From a virus: a stretch of DNA of 28,557 bases. The notes beneath the pieces were generated by a model, which was given only the letters and a program-made list of their open reading frames with translations, did no database searches and was not told where the DNA came from. Both the position numbers and the translations under genes were made by a program. Each line of letters opens with the position of its first letter. The first letter of the stretch is position 1. Below, piece after piece: positions 11,343 through 18,864 of the stretch. The stretch covers positions 1 through 28,557 of the IMG/VR virus record IMGVR_UViG_3300027759_000337; one strand, given 5' to 3'.

Positions 11343-13601
11343 ATGGCTGACCCTGCCAAGACAGTAGATCAAAACATTCTGCCTGTCCAGGCGCTGTTTA
11401 ATTTAGACAATACGTTTAATACATTTATTGGTCAGGGTCAGCCTTTTTACGCCACAGTAAACCCGTCCCAATCGGGACTGAGCATTACAAACAGCACAAT
11501 TAATAGCACCACAATCGGTGCTTTAGTGCCATCTACGGGTGTTTTTACAAGCATTCTGACAACAACAGGGCAAATTACCACTACGCCAACAGGCACAACA
11601 GACATTGCCAACAAGCAATATGTGGATGCGGTTGCCCAAGGGTTAAACCCCAAGCAAGCGGTTAAATGCGCCACATTAACGAATATCACGTTGTCGGGCC
11701 TACAGACAATTGACGCTTACACCACATTGGCGGGTGATCGGGTTTTAGTCAAGAATCAAACAATAACGTCACAAAACGGCATTTATGTTGCTTCTGCGTC
11801 CACTTGGACAAGATCAACTGACATGGATGTGTGGGCAGAAGTGCCAGGCGCTTATGCGGTGGTTTTGTACGGTGGTCAGGCTCAAACTGCTTGGGTTTCG
11901 ACTTCCTCTGACACGGGAACAATTAACGTCACCGCCATCACGTTTGTTCAGTTTGCGGGAAATAGCACTTACTTTGCGGGAACGGGTCTTAGCCTGGCTG
12001 CAAACACGTTCTCAATCACAAACACAGGCGTTACAGCTGCTGCCTACGGGTCTGCATCTAAAACCCTGACAGCCACAGTTAACGCACAAGGCCAACTGAC
12101 TGTTTTAGCAGACACAAACATTGCAATTACCAACGCCCAAGTTTCAGGCTTGGGAACAATGTCTACTCAGAACGCCAACAATGTGGCAATCACGGGCGGC
12201 ACAATCACAGGAACGCCCATCAGCGGATCAACTGTGGGTGGCAGCACAATTACTGCGTCTGTTCAGTTTGACGGTGCTGGAACGGGTTTAACAGGCACAG
12301 CAACAAGCCTTTCAATTGGTGGGAACGCTGCCACAGCGACAACGGCAACGACTGCCACAACTGCGACAACAGCAACAAATTTAGCGGGTGGTGCAACGGG
12401 TTCAGTTCCTTACCAAAGCGCAGCAGCAACAACTGCAATGTTGGGTGCGGGAACGAACGGTCAAGTTTTAACTTTAGCAAGCGGTGTTCCATCTTGGGCA
12501 ACCCCCACAACGGGAACTGTGACTTCTGTTAGCGGCACAGGGACAGTCTCAGGAATTTCCCTAAGTGGCACAGTCACCACATCGGGTAATTTGACTTTGG
12601 GCGGCACATTAGATTTGTCAGCGCCTCCCGCTATTGGTGGAACAACGGCTAACACGGTAAGAGGCACAACAATTACGGCAACAACTAAGTTTGTTGGCCC
12701 GTTCTTTGAGGCAGCTACAAGTGCGGGCGGTGCTTTGCGTAATTCAGGCGGGACAAGTCAATTGTCTTGGGGTGCGGGCGGTGGTGACAACCTTACATTA
12801 AGTGTTTCCACTAACATCAATGGTGCAAATGCTCAGATTGACATTAGTCCTACAGGGACGGGTCATGTCCACATGAAGCCAACAGGGACAGGCGCTATTG
12901 AGATTGCCCCGACAAACCTTGGCACGATTAACAATATGTCTATTGGTGCTACTACGGCATCAACGGCTAAATTTACAACAATTGATTTCAGCAGCACTTT
13001 GGCTGTGTCGGGGTCAACGGGATCGTCAGGTCAAGTTCTTCAGTCTAACGGTGCGTCAGCCCCCACTTGGGTGACTCCAACGGCTTATGCAACGGTTACT
13101 GATGACACAACCACTAACGCAACCCGTTACCCCTTGTTTGCAGCCGCTACAGCGGGTAATTTAACAACTGAGTATGTTAGTTCTACCAAGTACCAATTTA
13201 ACCCGTCTACGGGGCTTTTAACGGCAACAGGGTTTAGCGGGTCAGGGGCGAATCTGACAAGCATTCCAAACGCTGCCCTGGTTAACTCAAGTGTGACCAT
13301 AGGCTCAACGACTATTGCTTTGGGTGCGTCATCTACCACTTTGGCGGGCTTGACTTCTGTCACATCGACAACCTTTGTGGGTGATTTGTCGGGAAATGCG
13401 ACAACCGCAACAAGCGCAACAACTGCAACAAACGCAACGAATGTGGGTGTTACCGATAACACAACAACGAATGCAACCTATTACCCAACATTTGTGAGTA
13501 ACACAACGGGTAATTTGCCTATCACGGTTTCATCCACAAAGTTAAAATACAACCCAAGCACAGGCGCATTAACCGCCAATCAGCTAATCATTGCACCGTA
13601 A
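11343..13601 (+). CDS. Tail fibre protein 1 (repeat-containing)
   Basis: At 752 aa this is a large, Thr/Ser/Gly/Ala-rich, trimeric-fibre-like protein. Residues about 88-206 form a domain widespread in phage fibres: DIANKQYVDAVAQGLNPKQA, GDRVLVKNQTITSQNGIYVA, STWTRSTDMDVWAEVPGAYA and a closing ITFVQFAG. Thin-shaft repeats follow, including FDGAGTGLTGTA, two Ala-Thr-rich stretches (from 12327 and 13392), and NGQVLTLASGVPSWATP. Two DNTTTNAT...NPSTGxLTA modules near the C-terminus are homologous to each other. There is no C-terminal chaperone domain, unlike the next gene, so assembly may need a partner. It probably links the tail to receptor-binding parts or binds the host surface itself. Confidence 0.85.
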   Translation: MADPAKTVDQNILPVQALFNLDNTFNTFIGQGQPFYATVNPSQSGLSITNSTINSTTIGALVPSTGVFTSILTTTGQITTTPTGTTDIANKQYVDAVAQGLNPKQAVKCATLTNITLSGLQTIDAYTTLAGDRVLVKNQTITSQNGIYVASASTWTRSTDMDVWAEVPGAYAVVLYGGQAQTAWVSTSSDTGTINVTAITFVQFAGNSTYFAGTGLSLAANTFSITNTGVTAAAYGSASKTLTATVNAQGQLTVLADTNIAITNAQVSGLGTMSTQNANNVAITGGTITGTPISGSTVGGSTITASVQFDGAGTGLTGTATSLSIGGNAATATTATTATTATTATNLAGGATGSVPYQSAAATTAMLGAGTNGQVLTLASGVPSWATPTTGTVTSVSGTGTVSGISLSGTVTTSGNLTLGGTLDLSAPPAIGGTTANTVRGTTITATTKFVGPFFEAATSAGGALRNSGGTSQLSWGAGGGDNLTLSVSTNINGANAQIDISPTGTGHVHMKPTGTGAIEIAPTNLGTINNMSIGATTASTAKFTTIDFSSTLAVSGSTGSSGQVLQSNGASAPTWVTPTAYATVTDDTTTNATRYPLFAAATAGNLTTEYVSSTKYQFNPSTGLLTATGFSGSGANLTSIPNAALVNSSVTIGSTTIALGASSTTLAGLTSVTSTTFVGDLSGNATTATSATTATNATNVGVTDNTTTNATYYPTFVSNTTGNLPITVSSTKLKYNPSTGALTANQLIIAP
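12327..12377 (+). repeat. ACN/GCN low-complexity tract in fibre 1
   Basis: This 51-base tract encodes alternating Ala-Thr-Thr triplets (ATATTATTATTAT pattern) after GGN. Codons vary between GCC, GCG, GCA, ACA, ACG and ACT, so the protein pattern is kept more strictly than the DNA. A shorter related tract (GNATTATSATTATNAT) is at 13392-13439. Such tracts are common in phage fibre shafts. Confidence 0.7.
13098..13577 (+). repeat. Two related 42-43 residue fibre modules
   Basis: Copy one (13098-13226) encodes TDDTTTNATRYPLFAAATAG through NPSTGLLTA. Copy two (13452-13577) encodes TDNTTTNATYYPTFVSNTTG through NPSTGALTA. The shared skeleton is TDxTTTNATxYPxF...TxGNL...VSSTKxxxNPSTGxLTA. They are diverged at the DNA level and separated by a 225-base linker that carries the second Ala-Thr tract. 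Confidence 0.75.
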
Positions 13602-13610
13602 GGAAACATC

Positions 13611-15263
13611 ATGGGAACTTTAGTCTTTCAGGCAACACTAGGCGGTGCGGTCAATATCATTGGCCCGAATATCGCCAACACCATTAACTTCACTCTCCCA
13701 AGCGCTGATGGCACAAGCGGTCAGACTTGGACAACCAATGGCAGCGGAGTGTTGTCATTTGGTACATTGGGGATTGCGGGTGGCGGTACAGGACAGATTA
13801 CTGCAACAGCCGCATTCAATGCTTTAGCGCCTAGCCAATCAGGACAATCAGGCAAATATCTGACAACTGACGGGACTAATACATCTTGGGGAACAAACCC
13901 CTTGGGTACGGTGACTAGCGTTGCAGTATCGGGTGGCACAACGGGCCTGACCACTTCAGGCGGCCCAATCACCACATCTGGCACGATTACCTTTGCTGGC
14001 ACGTTGGCTACCTCGAATGGCGGCACAGGATTAAGTGGTGCTACTCCATTCACATCAGGCGGTGTGGTTTACGCATCTAGTTCTAGTGCATTGGCTACTG
14101 GCTCTGCGCTTACTTACAACGGAACAAGTTTAAGTATAGGTATAAGTGCTTCTTCACCAGCTTCAAGATTAAACGTAAGTGTTGGAAATGTAAGCACATT
14201 AGGTGCGCCAGCAAGTATGGGATTGTCTATTGATAGCAATGACAACAATATAGTTGTTGGCAATCTCTCTCAAATTGGTTTGGGTTTAAGAAATGTTTAT
14301 CAACCATCTTATATTTCCTATATTGTTACAAGTGCGGCAGCATATTCAAAAGGTGATTTGGTATTTGGCACGAGAAGTGTAACAACCGATGATGCACCAT
14401 CTGAAAGACTACGCATTACAAGCGCAGGCAATGTAGGCATTGGTACAAGTTCGCCAGTAAAGCCCTTGCACATCATCTCCTCTTCTGGGCCACAAATTTT
14501 AATGGAGCCATCATTAGGTAGTGGCAATACCGAACTTATGATTGGTAGGGGTTATAGCTTGTCTGGCACACCCGCTACAGTAGGCACAAAAAGTTTTATT
14601 CAGTGTGCGTTTGAAGGTTCAGACGACAACGCTTACAGCCCATTTGGATACGTTACCACAGCAGTTGGCAATCGTGTGGCAATTGCTACTGCTTTTTATA
14701 TTGAAACAAAATCAGCGGGTGCTTCTGCCCCAGCAGAACGCATGAGAATAGACTCTAGCGGTAACTTGCTGGTGGGGACTACGAGTGCGTTAGCTGGTGG
14801 TGGAAAAGTTCAAGTTTTAGGCGCAACTACAACTGCCGCTATGACAGTACAAGTTGGGACAGATGGTTACCCAGCTATTAGCTTTAACAATGCGGCTGGC
14901 TCACAGCAAGGATATATTCAAACTAATAGTTCAACTGTTCTTTATGTTTCAGTATCAGACTATCGACTAAAGAACACCATTGCACCAATGACAGGTGCAT
15001 TGGCTAAAGTGGCTCAACTTAAACCAGTTACTTACAAGTGGAATTTAAACGGCTCTGATGGTCAAGGCTTTATTGCTCACGAATTGGCTGAAGTTTGTCC
15101 TGATGCTGTAAGTGGTCAAAAAGATGCAGTAGATGCTAATGGCAATCCTAAATACCAAGGCATTGATACATCATTCTTGGTGGCTACATTGACTGCGGCT
15201 ATTCAAGAACAACAAGCAATCATTGAATCACTCAAGGCACGACTTGATGCCGCTAATCTTTAA
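13611..15263 (+). CDS. Tail fibre protein 2 with Peptidase S74 chaperone domain
   Basis: The 550-aa fibre starts MGTLVFQATLGGAVNIIGPN and TLPSADGTSGQTWTTNGSGV, a common attachment-type N-terminus. Next come IAGGGTGQITATAAFNALAP and NGGTGLSGATPFTSGGVVYA. The middle carries two copies of an ER(L/M)RI...GNxxxGT motif (ERLRITSAGNVGIGTSSP and ERMRIDSSGNLLVGTTSA). Residues 449-550 form the Peptidase S74 intramolecular chaperone: SDYRLKNTI with catalytic-type Ser449 and Lys454, LKPVTYKWN, GFIAHELAEVCPDAVSG and a terminal coiled coil. In this family the domain trimerises the fibre and then cuts itself off before the Ser. Codon and base use become visibly more AT-rich from about 14110, suggesting a recombined receptor-binding part. 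Confidence 0.9.
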   Translation: MGTLVFQATLGGAVNIIGPNIANTINFTLPSADGTSGQTWTTNGSGVLSFGTLGIAGGGTGQITATAAFNALAPSQSGQSGKYLTTDGTNTSWGTNPLGTVTSVAVSGGTTGLTTSGGPITTSGTITFAGTLATSNGGTGLSGATPFTSGGVVYASSSSALATGSALTYNGTSLSIGISASSPASRLNVSVGNVSTLGAPASMGLSIDSNDNNIVVGNLSQIGLGLRNVYQPSYISYIVTSAAAYSKGDLVFGTRSVTTDDAPSERLRITSAGNVGIGTSSPVKPLHIISSSGPQILMEPSLGSGNTELMIGRGYSLSGTPATVGTKSFIQCAFEGSDDNAYSPFGYVTTAVGNRVAIATAFYIETKSAGASAPAERMRIDSSGNLLVGTTSALAGGGKVQVLGATTTAAMTVQVGTDGYPAISFNNAAGSQQGYIQTNSSTVLYVSVSDYRLKNTIAPMTGALAKVAQLKPVTYKWNLNGSDGQGFIAHELAEVCPDAVSGQKDAVDANGNPKYQGIDTSFLVATLTAAIQEQQAIIESLKARLDAANL

Positions 15264-15274
15264 AAGGAAATATC

Positions 15275-15565
15275 ATGACTACCACTTGGACTATCTCAAC
15301 CCTTGAGCGTGAAACCTCAAACGGCTTTGTAACGATTGCACATTGGCAAGCCACAGCAGTAGATGGAGAGTATTCAGCCTCTACCTACGCAACTTGCTCA
15401 TGGGCTGATGGCACACCAACGATTCCCTATGCAGACCTAACACAAGAAACAGTCCTTGGATGGGTCTGGGCTAATGGTGTGGATAAACAAGCCACAGAAG
15501 ATGCTCTGGCGGCTAACATTGCTTTGCAGAAGAATCCTGTAACTGCTAGTGGGACACCTTGGTAA
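15275..15565 (+). CDS. DUF7936-like small protein after fibre
   Basis: The 96-aa protein contains TTTWTISTLERETSNGFVTI, AHWQATAVDGEYSASTYATC, TIPYADLTQETVLGWVWANG and the ending KNPVTASGTPW. I associate this pattern with phage proteins called DUF7936, usually next to fibre genes; the name is from memory and the function is not known. Its place directly after an S74-type fibre suggests a fibre-associated or fibre-assembly role. It has a good AAAAGGAAA ribosome site. The next gene starts within its stop codon and appears to be a diverged paralogue. Confidence 0.75.
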   Translation: MTTTWTISTLERETSNGFVTIAHWQATAVDGEYSASTYATCSWADGTPTIPYADLTQETVLGWVWANGVDKQATEDALAANIALQKNPVTASGTPW

Positions 15566-15879
15566 TGATCTGCCAATGGTCAATCACGGGGACTCAAGCC
15601 CAAGATGGTTTGATTCTCTGTGCCAAATATTATGTGACTGCAAAGGAAGATGACCTTTCTGTTGAGACAGAGGGTTATTGGACATTTGACAGCCCAAAAC
15701 TATCTGTTCCTTTTGACCAAGTGACAGAGGAAATGATTGTTGCTTGGATTGAAAAAGAGACTATGCGAGATGGCGTTTGCGTAATAAAATCAAGGTTACA
15801 AGAACAATTAAATTCTCTGAGCAAAAGCCAATTTACGCCCCCTCCTTGGCAACCTCAGACTTTCACCGTGGAAATGTAA
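15565..15879 (+). CDS. Diverged paralogue of the preceding DUF7936-like protein
   Basis: I chose ATG 15565, which overlaps the previous stop (TAATG); a TTG at 15559 is an alternative. The 104-aa product begins MICQWSITGTQAQDGLILCA, followed by KYYVTAKEDDLSVETEGYWT, LSVPFDQVTEEMIVAWIEKE and an ending FTPPPWQPQTFTVEM. It shares the skeleton W-x-I...G...A...P(F/Y)-x-x-(L/V)T-x-E-x(2)-x-x-W...L...PW with its neighbour, though overall identity is low. Tandem duplication followed by divergence is likely. Function is unknown but is presumably related to the adjacent fibres. Confidence 0.65.
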   Translation: MICQWSITGTQAQDGLILCAKYYVTAKEDDLSVETEGYWTFDSPKLSVPFDQVTEEMIVAWIEKETMRDGVCVIKSRLQEQLNSLSKSQFTPPPWQPQTFTVEM

Positions 15880-15888
15880 GGAAACACT

Positions 15889-16869
15889 ATGGCTGTGCCT
15901 TTTGACATTGTTAGCCGAGCGCTAAAAGACATTGGCGCATTAGAAGCTGGTGAAACCCCGACTCCTGACGCAGCGCTTGATGCGTTTGAAATGCTGAACG
16001 ACATAATTGACCAATGGTCAAACGAAAACATGATGGTTTTCAATGTCACAGAAATTATTTGCCCCGTCATTCCAGGACAAACCCAATACACGATTGGCCC
16101 TAACCCATCGACTCAGAACTTTATCGGTGCGTCTTTTACAGGCTCAATTGCGGGAAATATCCTCACGGTGACAGCTATTGCTTCAGGCGCTATTGCCCAA
16201 GGGCAAACGCTAAGTGGTACGGGAATCACATCAGGCACAAAAATTACGCAGTTTTTGACGGGTGCGGGTGGCAACATCAACGAAACAGGCACATACCAAG
16301 TCAACATCAATCAAACTGTTGCATCTACTGCAATCACGGCCTACTACCAAAAGCCATTAAATCTTGATTCTGCGTTTGTCAGGGTTAACACCACATCTAA
16401 TGGTCAACCCATTACAGGCGGTGGTTTGGACTACCCAATGTCGGTTTTGGAATTACACAGTTATCAAATGATTGGTTTAAAGACGCTAAGTGGCCCGTGG
16501 CCCAAGGCGGTTTACTTTAACCCAGGCGCTGATTCGGGAAATCTATTTATTTGGCCTAGCCCATCCCAGGGCGAAATGCACTTGTTTGCAAATACCTTGT
16601 TTAGCCGTTATGACTCAATGTATGAGGACATAGCGCTACCACAAGGCTATTCAATGGCTCTCAGATGGTGTTTGGCAGAGCGTTTAATGCCCATGTATGG
16701 CAAAGCCTCACCAACGCAAATAGCGATGATTCAGACGTTTGCAGGGCAAGCCAAAGCAACGCTGAAGCGCACAAACATGAGTCCGCTGCAAGTGTCACGT
16801 TATCCTGATGCTTTGTTAGTCAACAAGTCAAAAGATGCTGGATGGATATTAACTGGCGGCTTTATTTAA
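15889..16869 (+). CDS. Head-completion/head-tail connector protein (P22 gp4-like) with inserted beta-module
   Basis: The 326-aa protein starts [20 protein letters not shown] and [20 protein letters not shown], the usual helical start of gp4-like connectors that dock under the portal. The C-terminal half has [40 protein letters not shown] and [20 protein letters not shown], also typical. Between them, residues about 81-151, lies an extra beta-module ([20 protein letters not shown] then [16 protein letters not shown]) which recurs twice in the next protein. P22 gp4 is only 166 aa; the insert and the longer C-terminal part explain the difference. It should seal the packaged head together with the gp10-like protein downstream. 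Confidence 0.8.
16129..16341 (+). repeat. Beta-module copy 1 (inside gp4-like protein)
   Basis: This region encodes residues 81-151, including [34 protein letters not shown] and [17 protein letters not shown]. It shares the ordered motif FTGS...LTVT...SG-I...Q-L-x-G-x-G(I/V)...T-x-IT...TG-x-GG...GTY...QTVAS with copies 2 and 3. The stretch TTTACAGGCTCAA is identical in copies 1 and 2. Confidence 0.8.
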
Positions 16870-16878
16870 GGGACTACC

Positions 16879-18864
16879 ATGCCAGATTTCGGTTTTGTAG
16901 GCGCATCATACGAAGCACCAAGCATTTACCAAGATGCTCAAGAGTGCATCAATTTCTTTCCTGAAGTTGACCCTGCCAAGCAGCAAGGTGAACGTGGGGT
17001 GGTTGCGCTTTATCCAACGCCAGGCTTAACCGTCAAAGCAGTTTTCCCTAACCAACAAGAAGTTCGTGGATTGCACGCTGTCTCAGGCGGTGAGCAATTG
17101 ATTGCGGTCTGTGGGCCTTACGTCTATGCTTTAACAGCTAACCTTGTCCCATCTGTGATTGGGCAGCTTAATTCAAGCACAGGAATAGTGAAAATTACCG
17201 ACAACGGGATCAACGTCTATATTGTGGACGGTGCTTATCGTTACACATGGTACATATCAAGCCCCGCAGCAGCTATATTTACAGGCTCAACAAGCGGCAC
17301 AACATTGACCGTGACAAGCATTTCTAGCGGAACAATTGCCATCAATCAGTCTTTGTATGGCATTGGTGTTTTGCCTGAAACCGTGATTACTGCACTTGGG
17401 ACGGGAACTGGCGGGACGGGTACATACACAATCAACAGAAGTCAAACCGTGGCCTCTGGGACTATGAGTACGGCAACCGTGGGCGCTGTGGTTACTGCAA
17501 CGATTGCGGGGTTAACAATGACCGTTTCTGCGGTCACTTCAGGCGTTCTCCATGTTGGACAGACCGTTCAGGGCGTTGGCGTGACTTTGGGAACAATCAT
17601 TACCGCTTTGGGTACAGGATCAGGCGGGATTGGAACTTACACGTTAAGCGTGGCAAGTACGGTAGCCGTTGGCGTAACCATGTTTGGCATTAACTTTTCT
17701 GTTTTGCCATCCACAGACGGTGCGTTTAGCGGTGCAAACACGGTGGATGTGATTGACAACTACATTGTCTACAACAACCCAACGACTCAGGAATGGGGAT
17801 CAACTGACCTTTTGTCACCCATTTCGCCACAAACAAGTTACTCATTAAAAGACGGTGCGCCTGATGATTTAGTGGCTTTGATCGTTGATCACCGTGAAGT
17901 TTATTTGATGGGTGAGATTTCCTCAGAAGTTTGGACTGATGTGGGAACTGTGCCTTTCCCATTTCAAAGGATTCCTGGCACATCTACCCAACACGGCATT
18001 GCAGCGCCCTTTTCCCTTTATCGACTTGGGAATTCATTTGCTTACGTTTCACGAAATAATCGTGGACAAGCGCAGATCATGCAAATGCAAGGGTACATCC
18101 CACAAAGGATTTCCACTCACGCAGTAGAAAACACATTAGCCAATAAAAATGTTGACGATGCGATTGCGTGGACTTATCAGCTAGAAGGCCATGAAGTTTA
18201 TGTGGTGACATTCCCCACTTTAAATTTGACTTGGGCTTATGACAGTACCACTCAAATGTGGCACAAATGGCTTTATACGACAGACGAAAACGAATATGAG
18301 CGTCACCGTGGTAACTGCTGCGCTGTGTTTCAAGGTTTGGTCATTATTGGTGACTATGAAAACGGCAAACTGTACGAATTAGACAAGACCAATTACACAG
18401 ACGATGGTCAAAAAGTCCGCAGATTGCGTAGAGCGCCCCACTTGGTGACTGAGTTTCAGAGGCAATATTTTGATGAATTGCAGATTCAGTTTCAGCCAGG
18501 CGTGGGGACAACGGGTTTGTCAGCGCCTTTTGGTCGCAACATTCAGAATCCTTATTACATACCGCCTGATGGCACATTGGTAATTGGGCCTTTGGATACT
18601 GTTTTCTTGAGTGATTTAGCTACAATCAACCAAAACACACCGACAACTTTTCCACAAGCAATGCTGCGGTGGTCAAGTGATGGTGGTTCTACTTGGTCAA
18701 ATGAGCATTGGACGGGCGTTGGTCAGCTTGGTAAATATAAAAATCGTGCCATTTGGCGCAGATTGGGAACGGCCCGTGACCGTATTTTTGAAGTTGTGGT
18801 GACTGATCCTGTGAACTTTGTCATCATTTCAGCAAACCTTAAAGTGCAAGGGGCAGATAACTAA
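16879..18864 (+). CDS. P22 gp10-like tail hub/DNA-stabilisation protein with two inserted beta-modules
   Basis: The 661-aa protein carries gp10-family landmarks: [73 protein letters not shown] and DGAYRYTW. Later blocks are [40 protein letters not shown] and [16 protein letters not shown]. In P22, gp10 forms a hexameric ring below gp4 and stabilises packaged DNA. Two consecutive modules (about residues 131-197 and 203-269) interrupt the early part. Removing them leaves about 520 aa, near the 472 aa of P22 gp10. It starts nine bases after the gp4-like gene, behind AAGGGA, and its stop overlaps the next start. Confidence 0.85.
17269..17469 (+). repeat. Beta-module copy 2 (inside gp10-like protein)
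   Basis: This region encodes residues 131-197, with [57 protein letters not shown] and SGTMS. It matches copy 1 across the whole module and is directly followed by copy 3 after a five-residue linker. Confidence 0.85.
17485..17685 (+). repeat. Beta-module copy 3 (inside gp10-like protein)
   Basis: This region encodes residues 203-269, with [57 protein letters not shown] and AVGVTM. It has the same strand order as copies 1 and 2 and shares the ITALGTG-x-GG-x-GTYT core with copy 2. Confidence 0.85.

Follow-up and report, generated by a model that had tools for sequence, protein, structure and literature searches.

The question raised by this locus is how one short protein segment could have come to be present three times in two neighbouring proteins of a phage neck, and what it might do there. 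The window, by which is meant the whole stretch of DNA that was analysed (28,557 nucleotides, 28.6 kb), is a fragment of a tailed, P22-like freshwater phage, with its genes in the order terminase, portal, coat, fibres with an S74 chaperone, adaptor, nozzle and presumed ejection genes. The fibre genes (11343-15263) lie just upstream of the adaptor gene, and adjoining the latter, a pair of adjacent genes, 15275-15565 and 15559-15879, both match DUF7936 (E 6e-26 and 3e-7), likely a gene duplication. The features on which the argument turns are the following, all by profile match:

15889..16869, + strand: gp4-like head-tail adaptor, 326 aa, one module (phrog_12985, E 2.2e-39)
16135..16335, + strand: module copy 1, adaptor residues 83-149, with a 4-residue insertion (NINE); missing from adaptors of 234-238 aa at the same junction
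16879..18864, + strand: gp10-like nozzle or head closure protein, 661 aa, two modules (phrog_578, head closure Hc3, E 8.1e-95)
17278..17466, + strand: module copy 2 (A), nozzle residues 134-196; own strand pattern, pLDDT 87-94 in the full-length model
17491..17679, + strand: module copy 3 (B), nozzle residues 205-267; strand pattern as in copy A, pLDDT 79-94

Both host proteins exceed their family profiles: residues 6-303 of the adaptor align to positions 6-219 of phrog_12985, which leaves some 84 residues in excess, and the nozzle has about 146 more than phrog_578. The N-terminal helical part of the adaptor is alignable with P22 gp4 (one homologue, L042, and only that one, matches Pfam SU10_adaptor, barely over its cut-off), and the AlphaFold model of the nozzle matches P22 gp10 (8eap_D; Foldseek E 3.7e-14; Z 31.0, 350 aligned residues, rmsd 3.7). 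As the initial annotation had stated, P22 gp4 (166 aa) and gp10 (472 aa) are shorter and the segments are absent from them. The nozzle of the window also has a second, unrelated insertion near its C-terminus (about residues 548-590, 18520-18648), which is found in L233 and is absent in L007 and L234.

One module in three places

The module is about 63 residues long. When copy 1 was searched against the window it was found in exactly three places, with E values of 1.3e-38 (itself), 8.5e-11 and 2.2e-8 (the two nozzle copies). The pairwise Smith-Waterman scores of the copies are 152, 133 and 166, as against means of 42-47 and a top of 72-80 for 2000 composition-preserving shuffles (z of 15.6, 12.9 and 16.4, respectively); as these scores lie 13-16 standard deviations over the shuffles, a common richness in Gly, Thr and Ser does not account for the match. 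The proposal that the same module occurs three times in adaptor and nozzle is thus borne out, and the segments first proposed for it (residues 81-151, 131-197 and 203-269) are present, with the slightly tighter profile limits listed above.

At the DNA level, the run TTTACAGGCTCAA (13 bases) is common to copies 1 and 2, at 16135 and 17278, as had been claimed. Of 200 random synonymous recodings of both proteins, 8 gave a run of at least 13 bases; for the two remaining pairs of copies the runs are of ordinary length. The identity exists, but, being in the range of synonymous recoding, it largely follows from the protein match and carries little weight as evidence of copying, and its reading as a sign of recent copying was rejected.

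Predicted fold of the module

For the module alone, the second copy was predicted with 94 diverse modules as the alignment, giving a small beta-barrel of mean pLDDT 95.9 and pTM 0.81. In the full nozzle model, which has a weak core (mean pLDDT 67.9 overall), the stretch 132-271 reaches about 80-94, and copies A and B have the same strand order. It can be predicted with high confidence that the module is an independently folding small beta-barrel.

The closest solved fold by Foldseek is a chain of 124 residues, 8eci_1, from the particle of Arthrobacter phage Bridgette (prob 1.00, TM 0.70, 26% identity, Z 6.8). Other structural matches are a domain of eEFSec (Z 7.1), a segment of the Mystique tail-tube entry (Z 5.5) and E1 chains (Z about 5), and among RIFT or EF-Tu domain 2-like barrels 5izm_A gives Z 7.1 over 66 residues and F1-ATPase barrels Z 4-5, values that, being under 8, may mean only a common arrangement. 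The best matches are barrels, Ig chains appearing only at E 6.8-9.5 and TM 0.22-0.26, with no Pfam Ig match; all the solved structures named above suggest a fold relationship at a level below that of a certain claim. No relative at the level of sequence was found among solved structures, nor any Pfam or NCBIfam model for the module. In the case of Pfam E1_FCCH (PF16190), E1 chains are among the structural matches, yet the adaptor, the nozzle and the three copies themselves fall short of the model (no match at E <= 0.1); it was matched directly beside a module in L276. Each copy alone does match the families phrog_21413 and phrog_38233 over their module stretch, with E from 1e-11 to 8e-15.

Insertion and order of gain

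Homologues that lack the module align cleanly around its boundaries, and this exact absence at the junctions decides the check proposed with the initial annotation in favour of insertion. The nozzles of MW202520 and MW202674, 57-59% identical to that of the window, are without the segment at the same junction while their adaptors carry the module, and the adaptors of Rhodoferax P26218, PAE2 and DSL-LC05 (234-238 aa) are without it at theirs. The adaptor of Xanthomonas PBR31 has at the same site an insert that looks like a divergent module, which the profile does not recognise.

Among 283 distinct nozzles, drawn by similarity from viral contigs and phage records, so that the frequencies are not population estimates, neither protein bears a module in 70 cases, the adaptor alone bears one in 64 and two in 7, and the nozzle has at least two together with at least one in the adaptor in 121, the remainder being without an adaptor in reach. 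Nozzle modules are therefore always accompanied by an adaptor module (121/121) and never by a bare adaptor, the adaptor module is found with a bare nozzle in 71 distinct relatives, and none of the 283 nozzles has exactly one copy. Median adaptor length goes from 237 to 325 and 395 aa with none, one and two copies, and median nozzle length from 479-492 aa without the pair to 663 aa with it.

Mapped onto the nozzle-core tree (118 dereplicated rows and 403 columns; long outgroup branches leave the deepest placements unsure, and the nesting is independent of them), the adaptor module requires one change and the nozzle modules one change, the latter inside the clade of the adaptor module, whereas at least two adaptor copies and at least three nozzle copies require five changes each. 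No loss was seen among the 71 dereplicated module-bearing lineages of this tree. The module entered the adaptor first and, as a pair, the nozzle later, and it has been retained in both.

In T7 and P22 the adaptor ring is made of 12 subunits; the nozzle or head-closure ring has 6. The absence of single-copy nozzles had suggested a stoichiometric matching, in which the 12 modules of the adaptor ring would face the 6 x 2 of the nozzle; this was rejected, as the nozzle pair is one evolutionary event and lineages with adaptor modules only, and adaptors with 2-3 copies, exist.

Divergence and selection

Between genomes, copies at one and the same position have on average 65-75% of residues in common, and copies at different positions 46-52%, be it within one genome or between two; the copies of the window clade resemble modules of unrelated phages (0.49-0.50) as much as they resemble one another. 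The module tree, built on only 63 columns, unites the adaptor copies in one group (support 99) and the first nozzle copies in another (92), and leaves most other forks unresolved. A derivation of the nozzle pair from the adaptor module was also considered: outside its own position a copy nearly always has its best match in an unrelated protein, in a comparison where modules of that kind greatly outnumber the others. The modules have not been recently copied between the adaptor and nozzle genes, and both recent tandem duplication and gene conversion among the three copies were rejected, given the clustering by position and the equal divergence within and between genomes.

Two earlier suggestions are thereby divided. 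That of a domain able to duplicate in tandem is right for some relatives, in which the module has been amplified, but not, as a recent event, for the nozzle pair, whose copies are equally divergent. That of a spreading domain which tolerates insertion is favoured by the independent fold, the clean junctions and the many virion families, but with one gain per gene, no loss and copies as divergent as those of unrelated phages there is no current spread in these genes.

The dN/dS values, which are rough with synonymous sites near saturation (pS about 0.5), are 0.090 for the adaptor module against 0.090 for its core, and 0.123 and 0.131 for the nozzle modules against 0.100; purifying selection acts on the modules of the window about as strongly as on the essential connector core. 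Site entropies revealed no hypervariable loop in the module, so that a conserved structural contact fits as well as adhesion.

Other inserts at the nozzle site and between the genes

The spacing between nozzle modules A and B is variable in the relatives, with inserts of about 90-270 residues. In two loci only (L072 and L158), the stretch between the modules has a relative in the tailspike of a short-tailed cyanophage, namely its receptor-binding domain (7eea_A; E 1.7e-7 with the segment of L072 and 2.5e-5 with the whole L158 protein); a carbohydrate-binding identity (CBM5/12) was rejected for this insert, as Pfam gives no match and the tailspike match alone stands. In L034, L039, L108, L173 and others, at least one copy of another repeated beta module (GTGTITGYTxPTTYYIIATN) separates the two nozzle modules. 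The tailspike-like stretch and this other repeat imply that the site takes several kinds of extra domain.

The gap between the adaptor and nozzle genes is also a hotspot, with one or more extra genes in about 55 of 219 (redundant) loci, among them L036, L142, L018, L028, L063, L132, L032 and L234, and none in the window. These are often free-standing genes resembling homing endonucleases (GIY-YIG-looking with NUMOD3, HNH_3-like, and another HNH-looking kind), or fibre genes.

Occurrence in other proteins and genomes

The search of the module against phage proteins found it in many other virion protein families. Those that PHROGs and Pfam can name are tail sheath (DUF3383), tail terminator, minor head, head, baseplate wedge, the structural protein phrog_587 and fibres, and among predicted viral proteins the fold appears in an HK97 capsid protein, a pectate-lyase spike and giant-virus collagen-like proteins (TM 0.83-0.96). 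The last are BFVD A0A1V0SCQ2 and A0A1V0SDM6 of Indivirus ILV1, with 52% and 37% identity; should this genome be metagenome-assembled, mis-binning is possible.

A scan of bacterial and archaeal genomes gave 54 module loci, in taxa that include Pseudomonadota, Actinomycetota, Acidobacteriota, Nitrospirota, Bacteroidota, Verrucomicrobiota and one archaeal MAG. A Roseicella GH5 cellulase (L264, 2160-6356) has two tandem modules at residues 948-1081, and a secreted GEVED protein has five copies, so that the module is not confined to phages. In one Paraburkholderia prophage region, 5 open frames spread over about 20 kb contain 7 copies between them; of 200 genomes in the family, 196 are free of the module. 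Carrier phages thus tend to bear several copies. The module is, then, promiscuous and mostly of the virion surface, belonging to phages and prophages across several phyla. When the bare module was run by tblastn against phage records there was no match, and the whole-protein query did find module-bearing records; low-complexity masking is the probable explanation.

Possible roles of the modules

The reading preferred here, to which we would give an even chance, is that these are outward-facing accessory modules, inserted in loops of two neck proteins, that make weak, many-valued surface contacts. An autonomous barrel, such as sequence and single-chain models show, could fold without disturbing the host protein, so that the connector would still assemble; the modules would face outward around the neck, and would there offer weak, many-valued contacts with cell-surface glycans or neighbouring tail parts, as proposed for phage Ig-like domains. 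The nameable host proteins are all virion or secreted, which points to surface display. In favour of this reading are also the independent fold, the clean junctions, the single gains and the constraint, the tailspike-related stretch that shares the nozzle site in L072 and L158 only, and the analogy of the phage Douge Ig-like domains (PMC13033339); the want of a hypervariable loop and the weak model of the nozzle core weigh against it. The original idea of a ring or outward decoration at the neck is plausible. A more specific form of this, which we put forward only tentatively, is a neck array with one barrel per adaptor and two per nozzle subunit (24 per virion if the P22 stoichiometry holds), built stepwise with the adaptor first and the nozzle only where the adaptor already had its module, not seen to be lost, and acting as a display site that also lodges pieces of tailspike receptor-binding domains; in other words, a host-contact organ at the DNA gate, composed of a single promiscuous domain which other phages bear on their sheaths, baseplates and heads.

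The chief rival, to our mind improbable, is that the adaptor and nozzle modules jointly form or extend a pocket in which a tail fibre or spike is docked. In T7 the fibre is held between the dock of the adaptor and that of the nozzle, while the adaptors of P22 and Sf6 have no dock (PMC6702177), and in Peru-2, too, the spikes are inserted where adaptor and knob meet (PMC13320782); exactly the two proteins that dock the T7 fibre carry the module here. The constant company of an adaptor module wherever the nozzle has its own, and the fibre genes just upstream or, in some relatives, between the two genes, would agree with such a pocket. The relatives with an adaptor module and a bare nozzle, however, make it clear that the pair is not obligatory, and docking does not account for the module in proteins of the sheath, terminator, minor head and capsid.

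In third place, and rather doubtful, is a bracing function, in which the modules would contact each other or adjacent subunits and strengthen the neck against the pressure of the DNA, as capsid cement proteins do. Bridgette has been reported with dimeric capsid cement proteins (PMC13033339), and the nearest Foldseek fold, 8eci_1, may be one of these; strong purifying selection and the lack of observed loss are also in keeping with bracing. The repeated gain of tandem copies and the variable spacing would nevertheless be odd for a fixed contact, and a brace is hard to reconcile with modules in fibres, spikes and secreted enzymes. That the modules are passengers, neutral or selfish, which recombination spreads and which loops tolerate as in-frame inserts, as the very wide range of host genes might suggest, is very unlikely in view of a dN/dS of about 0.1, close to that of the core, the lack of loss, and no sign of gene conversion between copies.

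The module is a second promiscuous family of virion modules beside the Ig-like domains, whose role is still argued, and one that sits in essential connector rings. Its ordered history can be placed on a tree, and the relatives with none, with the adaptor module only and with both are a natural control, which makes the role of an accessory domain testable; moreover, recognising the module would help to annotate many hypothetical phage proteins.

Comparison with known systems

No description of the module as a unit was found in the open-access literature, and we know of no report of an ordered entry of modules into connector rings. The families phrog_21413 (unknown) and phrog_38233 (tail fiber protein) contain it, at about 398-467 of 595 and 551-626 of 896, but these are long whole-protein families in which it is not defined as a mobile unit. 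Domain shuffling in phage proteins, the promiscuity of Ig-like domains and RIFT-type neck barrels are already known (PMC10684548, PMC13033339).

The docks of T7 gp11 and gp12 likewise add beta domains to the rings of adaptor and nozzle, at the surface of the neck; by their description they are jelly-roll barrels that hold a fibre, whereas the present module is also found in sheath, head and baseplate proteins. RIFT-related or cradle-loop barrels, which recur in phage tail and neck proteins (PMC10684548), are similarly small beta-barrels of phage structural proteins, although this is a grouping at the level of fold, in which membership of the module is only suggested by Z of 4-7.

A close parallel is that of the phage Ig-like domains, which (Fraser et al., 2006, as cited in PMC13033339 and PMC9230969) are found in many unrelated virion proteins with a presumed accessory role at the surface. 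Those of phage Douge label the host surface (PMC13033339), and the extra domains of sheaths have been proposed to aid adhesion or stability (PMC9230969). Like them, the module is a short beta domain, presumably accessory, present in several unrelated virion proteins (in their case capsid, tail tube, sheath and fibres); unlike them, it apparently has another fold, with EF-Tu-type domain 2 and F1 barrels as its nearest matches and not the Ig sandwich, measures some 63 residues, and is lodged inside the proteins of the connector rings.
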